A stretch of DNA of 64,000 bases. Origin: Sipunculus nudus (Eukaryota; Annelida; Sipuncula; Golfingiida; Sipunculidae). Below are positions 12,101 to 18,100 of the stretch, one piece after another (positions within the stretch are counted from its first letter, which is position 1; each line of letters starts with the position of its first letter). Below the pieces are notes generated by a model. That model had not been told where the DNA came from, searched no databases, and saw only the letters and a program-made list of their open reading frames with translations. The position numbers and the translations under genes were made by a program. The DNA lies in NCBI GenBank assembly GCA_026874595.1, contig CM049317.1, positions 10,142,382-10,206,381 of the forward strand, read 5' to 3'.

Positions 12101-15100
12101 AAAACAATGAGTGTGCTATCCTAGGATGTAGACAAAAATTTAACAGATATTAAAAAAAATGTTTACTTACACATTTAGGGCAGTGCCAGTCTCCTTCTGG
12201 GATCTCCTCAAGTTTTAGACAAGTTTTATGGTACGACCTTGGACAGCCATCACAGAGAAGAAGGTCACCGCCATCTTGACAGTACTCGCAGAAAAAGTTG
12301 TGGTCACTCTGCAAAAATAAATATAATTCTGAATAATTCCATGAATTGATTAAAATTCACTTCAGAATATCAGAATGCAGTGGTAAAATACATCATTACA
12401 CTAACATTATTTTTGGCCTGATAACAAACATCATTATGAATATGACAAAATAAGGGTTCCTTCAACTAAAAAAATAAAATTTCATGACTTTCCTACGACC
12501 ATGATATTTCTTTTACACAATGATTCAATGTATAACAACTAAGGAACTGAGTCATCATCATCATTTAACATTTGCTAAAGTAAAGCAAGAGTGGTTCCAA
12601 GTTACTTAATAAGTTTATTTTGTATCAACTATGCATAAGCTCTCTTCACAGAAATATGTATAAAAGGCTCTCAGAAACAAAGGGGTAAGCCTCTCAGATG
12701 CTCTAAAATTCCTTTGCATGCTCAGCTCTGTGGACCTGAGCGTTCAAGCAGATGCACAGATTCTGACCTGACAGATTCTGACCTGATAGATAAATGTGGG
12801 CACTTACCACAGACACTGAGCAGTACCAATATCCTCATACAACTGCATGTATAATTTTTAAAAACAGTTTATAACAGCACAAATCACCCATTTGTACTGT
12901 CACACATTGGAAGACTTACCTGCGGACATATAATGTAAAATAACAGGTAAGAAATATTAAGTTTTACATAAACAAAATTTGACACAGCACTTAGGACTCC
13001 CTGGAACCCCATTGGACTCTCCAAATATTTGACCTGGACGTCCAGGATTCTCCATTTCTTTTGCCAAATGAAAGTTTTGAAAAGAGGTTTTTTTTTTTAT
13101 TGATGTTATATAAGATATTTAATACATTGGTTGGAGTCGTTCACTGTCAGTTCCCTTAATTCTATCATATATACACAGGATGTACACCATGTTTATACCT
13201 CCTCTCCTTCACTCTCTCCATCATCAACCCACACAGGTTTCCTAGGCTGTGCTCCCTTCTTTTTCTTGCCTTTGCCTCTTCCTTTAGCTTTAGGTTTCTC
13301 CTGTTCTGTTGCGTCTTCTTCCCGTAACATTTTCTCAAAGGCACGGTCACTCAGCTGATTCTGTAACAAAAATGACAAACAGCACTGATATAACTGTTAT
13401 CATCATTATCATCACCTTCAATGTCACAATAACCATTATTTACTGGTGTGTTATTTTAAGTCATCATCATCAACATTATCATCTTCTGTATTAAATAGTG
13501 CTGTTATTATTATTACCACCAACACAACAATCACTATTATCATGATCATTGTCATTAACCCTACCCCCAGCAACATCACAATCATCATCAGTATCACATC
13601 ATCAACATCATCTTCTTCACCATCACCATGACAACCAACACCATCATCCTCCTCACCATCATATGGAAGTGACAACCTTATATGGCAGTTAAGAATTTTA
13701 CTATAAATCCCCTGTTTATGTTTCACAACAATTTAGTCTCTTACATGATCTGGCAAATATGGTATTTCCCTCCATAAGTAGCCATCTTTGTTTTAGCTGG
13801 TTATATTTTTTAGATTGTTTACATGAGATCATTCAATCAGCAGCTGTCAGTTGAGGCTGCTTTTGCATGTGACCAATGATCTTGACCGCCATAATTGAGT
13901 CTGATATGTTGTAAAATGTAGACTGATTTCTCATATTTTTAGAAAATTCTGTTACTCAAATAAGGCATAAGGTAGGAATTTAGTTACCTTGTTGAAAATT
14001 TGGTTCTATAATTCTCTTCTCTACACTATAATTGTTCCCTTGAAATGTACCTAATAAAAATTTTCATAGCAAAAAACAGGTGGACATAAGGGGATGAAAC
14101 GGACTATAATCATCAGAAGCATCATAAATGTATCATGAACTTCATTACTGTCTCACAAAATTATCATTTACATTACATTCTGAATAATTACAACCATCAC
14201 TGTTTTTAAGTATCATCACCACTGTTCTCATCACCGTAACATCACCTCTATCAGCAGTACACCTTTATGGTATTGCTACAGTATTACGTGACTTTTCTAT
14301 GATTCTGATGTCCCTATCACCGTGTTGAACACAACAGAATTTAATGTTAGGCTAACTGTGGTTTTTAGCTCAGCTGACTATAAGTCATCTGAGCTATAGT
14401 CGTGGTACATTGTCCGCCGTCCGTCTGTCTGTCCGTCCTTAAGACTGGCACGTTTTGACACCATTGGACCTACGAATCTGAAATTCGGCATACAGTTAGA
14501 TGTCCCCAAAATCTCCTACCATGCCGAAAATTTGGTAAAAAGGACTTCATTCCTTCGAGATATTAAGGAAAAACCTCAATTTTTTATTTTCTCTATTTCA
14601 TGATATTACTATGAAATTATATAAAATGCAAGCCTGGCTGCCATATTCAGGAGAATGCTACAAAAGCACATGAAATGCCTGTACAGTGCCTCAGAGTGAC
14701 AGTTTTCTGTCTTTCAGTATTATACAAAATGCTCACCTTACCATGTTGATTTGTTTGGTCCTCTAATGGTATCACAATGATACTACATGTAACTTTAGCC
14801 TTACTGATGGTTATTCTGTTTTCTCATGGGACTGCTACAGTAGTATACAAAAATGTGAGTCTGACTGTGATGTTATTCAGCTTGACTGTGATGGTTTTTT
14901 AGCCTTATCAGGTTGGTTTGCAGCCAAACTGTAATAGTTTTTAAGCCTCACTTGAATGGTTTTCAGCCTTGCCATGATGGTGATGGTTCATCAGGCTTAC
15001 TGTAATGGTTTTCAGGCTCACTATAAGAGTTTCTCAGTCTTACTGTGATGGTTTTTTAGCCTTAACGTGATAGTTTTCAGGCTCACTGTAATGCCTTATC

Positions 15101-18100
15101 AGCCGTTCTGTGATGGTTTTTTAGCAATACTGTAATGGTTTTTAGGCTCACTATATCAGTCTTTCTGTGATAGTTTTTTAGCCTTACTGTGATCGTTTTC
15201 AGGCTCACTATAATGGCTTTCACCCTTACTGTGATAGTTTTTTAGCCTTCCTATGATAGTTTTTAGACTCACTATAATGGTTTTTCAGCCTTACTGTGGT
15301 GTTTTTTAGCCTTACCGTGATAGTTTTCAGGCTCACTATAATGGCTTTTCAGCCGTACTGTGATGCTTTTTAGCCTTACTCTGAGTCTTCTTGCTCACTA
15401 TAACGGCTTGTTAGCCTTTCTGTGATGGTTTTTTAGCCTTACCGTGATAGTTTTCTGGCTCACTATAATGGTTTTCAGGCTCACTATAATGTTTTTTCAC
15501 GTTTACTGTGATGTTTTTTCTGACTTACTGTGATGGTTTTCCTGGACCTCTCGCTCTTTCTTTCACCAGGGATGACTAGTTTCTCAGACCTTGGAGTCTT
15601 TGACCTCTTGTTCTCATCACTAGAAAACTCTGACTCCGCCTCCTCAACTGATGGCTCCTCCTGGTAGTCTTCTTCATCCTGACAAAATGATACAATGTAT
15701 TACAGCACACAACACAGTCACCAAATCCTAATCCTAAGACTCTTTAGAGATTGTGGGAAAAGGAATCATTTCCCGACAAAGCAATGGAGCTTCTAAAAAC
15801 ACCAACGGCTTAAGGTACATGAACTTTGTGAAGCATGCTGATACAATAGCAAAGGCGCCAGGCTTGGATTAAGTGGTTCATAGGGTCCAATGACACTTAG
15901 CAATTAAATAATATCACTTAATTTAAAACTAAGCTGCCCTGGCTCCAGGCTGTTTAAACTATATTGAACACACTACATCCTGACTCACTGATTCAACCTT
16001 CTTCTTGGACCTTCTGGACCGTCTTTTCTTTGACGTTCCCTCAGAATCTGAGTCCTCCTCTTCATCCTCCTCCTACATAAGTAACAACAAAAGTAAGTAA
16101 ACTTTGTGACAACTTATAAGTAAAACCCTCATGGTATTAACAGACAATCACAGAACAATTATAGTGAGTAAACTTTGTGACAACTTATAAGTAAAACCCT
16201 CATGGTGTTAACAATCACAGAACAACCACAGGAAGCCTCCCACATGTAATTCAGCGATAATGGGGAACTGGATATGGTGTACACCCTCAAAAATTAGGTC
16301 AAGGTCAAAATAAATATCAGGTGTAAATCTGAGCCCAATATTTTTAAAAGCAGCTATATTTGAGATCCAGAACAAACACAGACAGAAGAAAGGAAAAGCA
16401 AAAGCTAAAAAGAATCTACAACCAATGGTTTTGCACTTTGGGGGACCTATAAAAGTCCATCCACAAATATTTTTTACCCAAATATTGATATAGAAATAAA
16501 CTTATCAACCCTCAAACCACCCTGGTACATGGTATGTAGTTTAAAATTCATTGAGCCATTTGAATTCTCGAGTTCTCTTGTGTAGACTGCTGGCACATGG
16601 ACTCTGGCCTTTTTGGAAATTTTCTATGGGTTTGTCTGCTGGTAAGATTGTTGTTCACATTCAGACACCTGGTTAAGGTCTTTTGCACAAAGTTGCACCC
16701 TCTACACTGAGATATGAGTGTAATTGTCATGTGTGGCAGAAGAGAGTAGAAACATTATCCTTCTAGCACCTGTCAAGGCTGCGGGGTTATCTCCCAAGAA
16801 AACAGAGAACAGCTACATGATGGTAAGGGCTAGAAAAACCATGATGGACATCTTAGTTTTAACTTTTAAGAAATTAAGTCTATTATTTTCACGCACACAA
16901 GTGATATATAAAGGCACATGTTTTTTTTTAACAGGTCTTTACATATCTCTATATTAAGTTTTTTTTTTTGTAAATTTGATCAGCTTTTGTTTGTAAATTT
17001 ATTGATAAAACTGATGGTCTTACCACCACTGCCTTCACTCGCTGTGACGCCTTCCTAGCAGCTTTCCTTCTGCCACCAGAGGGCTCTGTCAGCGGGGTGA
17101 ACCGGATTATGCCATCCTCTTCATCCTATTATGATTGAAGTAAACGATAGACATTTCTAATGATCATCTCTTAAATACAATGATATCTTAAAAATGACAG
17201 TTAATAAAATTTTAGATAAATAAAAATATTCATATCCTTTCTAGCTTTTTTTCACCTTACAAAAGAGAATATATCTTTTTACAGAATTTCTGAATTTAAT
17301 TTGTTTATATCTGTAAAGCTGTTTTTTCTATGAAATTCTTTGCTACAATGTGACATGATTTCAGAGCTTTGCTGCCACATTCTCAAGGAATCCAGGAAAT
17401 ACAACCTGATTCCCTGTGACTGTTTATGACCCAAGTGTCCTTGTTTACAACTGGAATGATTGTCTTCAATAGTTTTTGATTTTCAAATTTTTAATGATAC
17501 TTTAATCAACATAACTGAGGTTCTGCTTAAAAATTAAAGTCTGATCCATAAAAAATAAAGAGTGGTGGTTCTGTAAAACAAATATTTTGCTCCGGCCTGA
17601 TCATATGATGTTTAGATGACAATAATGATAGTGGTTTTGCTTGTTACTTGTGCTACACCTTTTGTGTGTATGAGGTAATTAATAAGTGACATTACTGATT
17701 GGGGTTTTGATCTCCTCTTGGGCTTGTTCTGGGTCTTCCTCTTCTTGCGGGTGTATTCGGATCCCGATAAATCTTCCTCTTCTTTATAGTCGTCATCCTG
17801 TAACAGAAGATAAAACTAAATGTAAGGATCTCAAACATGGGTGTATGTTAAAGAGAGCATATGACATCCAAGATTATATATACAATAAAAAAAATTTCTG
17901 TAACTTTTGTCAAGTTTTTTATTTTTGTAATTTAATTATTTGTTTAAAGAATAAAATAACCAGTAGGTGGCAGTGTTCATAGTAAGAGGATGAAGATAAA
18001 TACATGATAAGGAATGATGTGTTATTATTATTATTATTATGGTTGGTATGAAATAGAGACTGAGGACTGTCAGATCTAATCATTGATGGCTCTGGTAATA

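Follow-up and report, generated by a model that had tools for sequence, protein, structure and literature searches.

What gives rise to a minisatellite most of whose units carry a 5' splice site (donor), how does it come to overlap the real donor of an exon, and which of its many donors would be used? These questions are raised by a locus of the sipunculan Sipunculus nudus, which lies within a window of 64,000 nt (the whole stretch of DNA that was analyzed; assembly GCA_026874595.1, contig CM049317.1, positions 10,142,382 to 10,206,381) taken from this one assembly. The array stands at the end of an inferred exon in a gene for a Mi-2/CHD3-5-like remodeller. Mirages are minisatellite-like tandem duplications of exon-intron boundaries known from amphioxus (PMC3087553). 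We give a probability of about 0.75 to the reading that the array is a minisatellite of the mirage type that grew from the junction, with the first donor being used for splicing and the later units being tolerated as intronic passengers. The array and its junction comprise the following features (the slash in donor motifs marks the exon-intron boundary):

14858 to 15541, minus strand: minisatellite array, 684 bp, about 32 units of 21 to 22 bp.
15529 to 15678, minus strand: inferred exon upstream of the array, 150 nt, phase 0-0, 50 amino acids (the putative "exon 10" of the original prediction).
15523 to 15531, minus strand: inferred real donor ACA/GTAAGT, with the intron starting at 15528, inside unit 1.
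13199 to 13360, minus strand: inferred next exon, phase 0, 54 amino acids, followed by GTATAA (end not fixed).

The original prediction had placed an array overlapping a donor at about this position, and such an array is found at 15,541 to 14,858 on the minus strand, where wrap-around alignment with a 21-base unit gives a score of 581, compared with at most 21 in 20 shuffles. The period is 21 to 22 bp by this alignment and by Tandem Repeats Finder (which returns periods of 21, 22, 43, and 64 at the array) rather than the approximately 26 bp first proposed. A regular three-unit order runs through units 5 to 26 and is absent from units 1 to 4 and 27 to 32. Such a pattern, irregular at the ends and regular inside, is usual where a core has been homogenised and the edges are older. 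Of the 32 units, 26 keep an intact GT and 20 keep GTRAG, the base at -1 is mostly A rather than G, and the array involves the donor side only.

The inferred junction is itself part of the array. The exon at 15,678 to 15,529 has a good acceptor, an open frame, and phase 0 at both ends, and 13,360 is the phase-0 start of the next exon. Among the donors scoring above 0.5 that were listed for this exon, ACA/GTAAGT at 15,528 is the only one that fits the phase. The sequence at the junction reads AAAACCATCACA/GTAAGT, and the last 13 nt of the exon fall within the array, with unit 1 consisting of 13 exonic and 8 intronic bases. Of 19 letters, unit 1 shares 17 with the consensus unit, including 12 of the 13 exonic letters, and its nearest kin within the array also has 17 of 19 letters in common with it. 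The inferred donor of the exon thus belongs to the array, as had been claimed, and the match of 17 of 19 letters runs counter to the opposite outcome, that is, an exon-proximal unit no closer to the array than chance. G is also absent at -1 from five other inferred donors of the gene (TCA/GTGAGT, GCA/GTGAGT, TGA/GTAAGT, TGT/GTAAGT, and TCT/GTGAGT), and therefore a weak -1 position seems ordinary in the window gene.

Judged from its sequence, the array has the structural features of a mirage, with tandem units of minisatellite size, AG/GT-like signals kept in many of the units at the GT and GTRAG counts given above, and a repeat that runs across the exon-intron boundary, as set by phase and splice signals, with both sides copied. 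In amphioxus, mirages occur in the Adh3, TnC, globin, and PGBD5 genes, with Adh3 units of 10 to 72 bp (PMC3087553, PMC3902484), and the edges of the globin cluster escape homogenisation (PMC3087553). Adh3 repeats of lancelets are also reported to change in length. The S. nudus array is like the amphioxus mirages in being a tandem repeat across an exon-intron boundary, with AG/GT signals in many units, and like the globin case in being homogenised inside but not at its edge, and it is unlike them in its size of about 32 units, its restriction to the donor side, and its place in a genome of 1.43 Gb, lancelet genomes being about a third of this size. The Adh3 data and reverse transcription-PCR suggest that regular splicing is undisturbed by mirages (PMC3087553; also PMC3902484). 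In human paralogues within segmental duplications, repeats at exon-intron boundaries, with a mean unit of 30 bp, are reported to be able to generate alternative splicing and novel introns (PMC2812944). The window array resembles these variable internal tandem repeats in being a minisatellite expansion at an exon-intron boundary, but its units behind the first lie in the intron. Intron gain via tandem duplication of AG/GT proto-splice sites is discussed in PMC3087553, and it resembles the array in that the duplicated segment carries a splice signal; here, however, no new intron is evident, and the copies lie within an intron. The array is a further case of a known kind of repeat, probably carried as a tolerated passenger.

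The strengths of the array donors were scored with a human donor matrix, with 500 dinucleotide shuffles as a control. The score is 2.92 for the real donor and about 1.5 to 1.7 for the common units ACA/GTAAGG and ATA/GTGAGC, which are off consensus at -1 (A) and +6 (G or C). With the real donor included, 18 of the 31 GT sites in the array reach a score of at least 1.5 (shuffles: mean, 2.5; maximum, 8), and 5 of the 31 reach at least 2.92 (shuffles: mean, 1.4; maximum, 7). Two sites, each scoring 5.06, are stronger than the inferred real donor by both the matrix and U1 pairing:

15437 to 15445, minus strand: array donor ACG/GTAAGG, with the intron starting at 15,442.
15310 to 15318, minus strand: second array donor ACG/GTAAGG, with the intron starting at 15,315.

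The 5' end of the U1 small nuclear RNA (snRNA) is canonical in all four U1 loci read. The calculated pairing energies are -8.7 kcal/mol for ACG/GTAAGG, -5.6 kcal/mol for the real donor, and -4.6 to -5.0 kcal/mol for the usual units, and pairing is weaker than that of the real donor at 25 of the 31 GT sites. The original description of the array as about 25 near-equivalent donor sites is therefore right in part, in that 18 sites reach 1.5 and two exceed the real donor, but most of the sites pair more weakly and depart from the consensus at -1 and +6.

The consequence of using a later donor can be read from the frame. When the exon is extended to each later GT of the array and joined to the next exon, a stop results in 30 of 30 cases, at codon 65 in 27 of them and at codons 56, 62, and 64 in the other three. 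One stop codon within the array is placed as follows:

15484 to 15486, minus strand: in-frame TAG, reached when the donor at 15463 or a later one is used; splicing at 15484 gives a stop at the same codon.

Exon extension could thus only lower output, and the array would be unable to add a useful peptide in this way. The exon, being 0-0, could also be skipped in frame.

Growth from the splice junction, as originally suggested, is the best reading of these data because the array holds the inferred donor together with 13 exonic bases, no other copy of its unit was found, and other arrays start at exon-like ends (see below). In a search of the 1.43-Gb assembly, which was used for all genome-wide searches, the sole match of the array unit is the locus itself, although the search skips common words and copies could be missed. 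The unit was thus not seen at other genome places, as it would be for a dispersed satellite or a transposon-borne repeat. In the proposed course of events, a stretch of 21 bp across the junction, with 13 exonic and 8 intronic bases, would have been duplicated in tandem; the duplicated stretch would then have expanded downstream and been partly homogenised as a three-unit repeat of 63 to 64 bp. Splicing would take the 5'-most donor, which has a favourable T at +6 and is preceded by the entire exon, and the remaining units would stay in the intron as tolerated passengers. From the features of the locus we infer a seed at the junction, use of the first donor, and little effect of the array.

The same arrangement, in which an array of donor-bearing units starts at the end of an exon-like sequence, is a recurrent one in this genome as far as candidate exons can be recognized. 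A search for three spaced copies of AGGTAAGT gave a first set of 27 clusters among the matches listed (L008 to L034, including C1:11,284,058), and a second set comprised 20 arrays with AGGTGAGT or GTAAGT units (L068 to L087). Many first-set arrays start within coding-exon-like sequence, with the donor of the first unit as the exon end. A mechanical score combined the acceptor, the open frame, and protein-like composition, the last being an amino acid score based on average residue frequencies. A score of at least 3 is reached by 12 of the 27 first-set arrays, compared with 4 of 22 single AGGTAAGT sites (P = 0.049), 7 of 27 same-strand upstream donor-like sites, and 2 of 26 sites on the other strand. 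At higher thresholds, the counts are 11 arrays and 4 singles (at least 5; P = 0.08) and 6 arrays and 2 singles (at least 8; P = 0.2). Five of the 20 second-set arrays reach 3, and the pooled arrays (17 of 47) exceed the other strand (P = 0.006). These counts are to be read with the knowledge that the amino acid score put L017 in the wrong frame, below 3, despite a good PH domain; that the doubtful L083 was counted; that the sister copies L021 and L022 are nonindependent; and that two of the singles, L050 and L051, are repetitive and only 2.3 kb apart. For L028, L017, and L024, the exon with the highest score ran into or lay in the array, and the first-donor exons were determined separately. 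A codon usage score (at least 5 in 3 of 27 arrays, 1 of 22 singles, and 0 of 28 other sites) was dropped, as the Mi-2/CHD4 training exons are biased to acidic and basic residues.

Protein family matches support the exon at three arrays (L017, L025, and L073). At L017, the exons flanking the array join in frame from the first donor, with AGA as the junction codon, to give a PH domain with an E value of 1e-13; the two halves taken singly give 0.018 and 9e-8. At L025, the exon that ends in the array belongs to a methyltransferase domain (E value of 3.5e-5 alone and 8e-9 with the preceding exon), and a PDB search gave a weak match to a tRNA methyltransferase (E value of 0.0026). Leucine-rich repeats are found in the exon ending in the L073 array (E value of 6e-13), and a SAM domain is found at L009, from the upstream exon pair. 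At L028, two donors were scored, and the first alone fits the phase (0) of the next exon; the score preferred the donor of the second unit, which is out of phase with the exons after the array. No match was obtained in PDB searches with the single exons of L009, L028, and L021 and with the joined L028 exons or in a Pfam search with the joined L028 exons. The L028 chain reads like KDSR, a name that the searches did not confirm, and L021, L015, and L025 are putatively CEBPZ, a tetraspanin, and ALKBH8-like, respectively. In eight other arrays that were measured, the inferred junction also lies within unit 1, and 2 to 14 donors, the first included, are as strong as the first. L021 and L022 (C3:73.79 and 73.83 Mb) are similar gene copies about 37 kb apart that have the exon and the donor array in common, so that the array probably predates the duplication of the gene.

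Several points weigh against growth from the junction with first-donor use. Both the use of the first donor and the direction of growth are what we infer from the sequence of one genome. Two array donors (15,442 and 15,315) clearly exceed the inferred real donor, and four equal or exceed it. The pooled arrays (17 of 47) are not firmly separated from the singles (4 of 22; P = 0.11) or from the same-strand sites (7 of 27; P = 0.26), and junctions as a preferred birthplace of arrays are therefore not demonstrated by the mechanical test. In addition, boundary tandem repeats in human paralogues are reported to cause alternative splicing (PMC2812944).

Random placing may explain how often such an array is found at a donor, since any minisatellite may touch a donor in a repeat-rich genome. 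This explanation, which we entertain tentatively, concerns frequency and is compatible with growth from the junction. Tandem repeats make up about 10% of the window (9% of positions 8,000 to 24,000), and 1 of the 12 inferred donors lies in an array, which is approximately the random expectation. Another of the 12, that of the next exon, was placed three bases off in this count, but in either position it falls outside the arrays. Arrays of AGGTAAGT are rarer than those of the reversed pattern (144 versus 255 matches), as are single AGGTAAGT sites (45,924 versus 67,855), whereas AGGTGAGT arrays are commoner than their reversed pattern (444 versus 48 matches, part of the former being one dispersed unit). 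Three spaced copies of CAGTAAGG give 3 matches, at two other places and with different units, versus 41 for the reversed pattern, and GTAAGT gives 1,967 versus 6,985. These counts differ in direction, and no enrichment was concluded from them. What random placing fits less well is the frequency of the AGGTGAGT arrays and the unit of the window array, which includes the junction itself and was found nowhere else in the search.

For the origin of the array, the main rival is the capture of an array unit as a donor, in which a minisatellite already present in the intron, or arriving there, would have supplied its first unit after an older donor was lost. The T at +6 of unit 1, which only one other of the 32 units shares, would look as if it had been improved after capture, and the irregular array edges could be old. 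However, no other phase-0 donor scoring above 0.5 is listed in the exon, although one may have been erased, and the position of the inferred junction in unit 1 of the eight other arrays also argues against capture, which we consider unlikely.

In the P element of Drosophila, pseudo or decoy 5' splice sites bind U1; they are few and act together with bound regulators. A comparable role for the S. nudus array, which would hold U1 at many sites and lower or tune use of the exon by having it skipped, by extending it to an early stop, or by retaining the intron, is improbable and has less to recommend it than capture. Like the P-element decoys, the donor-like sites stand beside a real donor, and their number (18 at 1.5 or above, the real donor included, versus a shuffle mean of 2.5) and the two clearly stronger sites would suit such a role, as would the stops behind all 30 later GT sites, through which their use would lower output. 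Unlike the P-element decoys, however, the window sites are many, lie downstream of the real donor, and are not specially conserved. The donor letters at +1 to +5 show 16 mismatches in 160, versus 64 in 498 elsewhere in the unit, the latter being partly differences between unit types. Donor letters more conserved than the rest of the unit, as functional decoys predict, are thus not seen, and this speaks against decoys having been selected for. Reports of alternative splicing and novel introns from boundary tandem repeats in human paralogues (PMC2812944) favor a decoy role, but lancelet mirages are reported not to give aberrant mRNA (PMC3087553, PMC3902484), and each of the eight other arrays measured holds 2 to 14 donors equal to the first, the first included. 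The decoy or U1-sponge role and the shifted donor choice first suggested for the array are unsupported, and an effect on splicing is possible. U1 snRNA genes were found at C6:50.26-50.37 and 88.24-88.30 Mb, in tandem and mostly one per approximately 2.8 to 2.9 kb, with at least 42 places of equal score. Sequestration of U1, which had also been proposed, is implausible for a single locus because there are at least 42 such places and 25 of the 31 sites show weaker pairing than the real donor.

The gene in which the junction would have served as the seed was placed by its domains:

12171 to 12308, minus strand: PHD finger exon, which places the gene among the Mi-2/CHD3-5-like remodellers.

The strand of the array also encodes two PHD fingers and a chromodomain, and the first PHD finger matches CHD4 with an E value of 2e-24. 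A CHDNT match upstream is weak (E value of 0.013) and falls below the cutoff. A second, more CHD4-like gene, with a CHDNT-like exon and two PHD exons, is present at C15:23,609,331-23,618,330 (L006), and the window gene therefore appears to be a diverged paralogue. The 18 kb searched at the C15 paralogue (L005 and L006) contain no match to exon 10 with an E value of 1 or better, and no ancestral junction is therefore available from the paralogue. A search for retrocopies that would display the real junction found none, both exons matching only their own genomic places.

Other repeats were observed in the window and elsewhere. In the window, tandem repeats of 180 bp and 337 bp with at least four copies occur at 6747 to 7471, 30615 to 31334, and 57378 to 59874. 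A 30-bp unit, GTGAGTGATCATCTCTGATTATGCTTACAG, and its variants, in which an acceptor-like motif abuts a donor-like one, occur at C4:62.5, C5:16.2, C6:21.9, and C8:57.4 Mb (L023 and L074 to L076). A 58-bp array with AGGTAAGT in most of its units extends over at least 4.8 kb at C1:1,041,372-1,046,191 (L057), and no exon was found at its first AGGTAAGT. In addition, 10 of 11 COX1 matches in the assembly, on C60 to C89 and C123 (a 112-kb contig), with open frames of 489 to 578 amino acids, were judged bacterial, and these contigs with full COX1 genes are probably bacterial contigs within the assembly. The eleventh match is a 153-nt piece with a stop. No match to a molluscan haemocyanin domain was seen in a search whose controls likewise gave none.

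That such arrays recur within a single genome is the point of greater interest, because RNA data could test the choice among equal donors. It is possible, although doubtful at present, that splice-donor junctions are recurrent birthplaces of minisatellites in S. nudus and that the spliceosome regularly commits to the first donor that it meets. The choice among near-identical donors is usually studied with engineered duplications, and if this view is true, such genes would constitute a natural set of experiments in the competition of multiple donors. If equal donors trail the real donor in many genes, ordinary RNA sequencing would reveal which of order, exon context, and strength is decisive. 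The finding would also extend a lancelet phenomenon to a further genome, and it would bear on the lengthening of introns and the origin of new splice sites.

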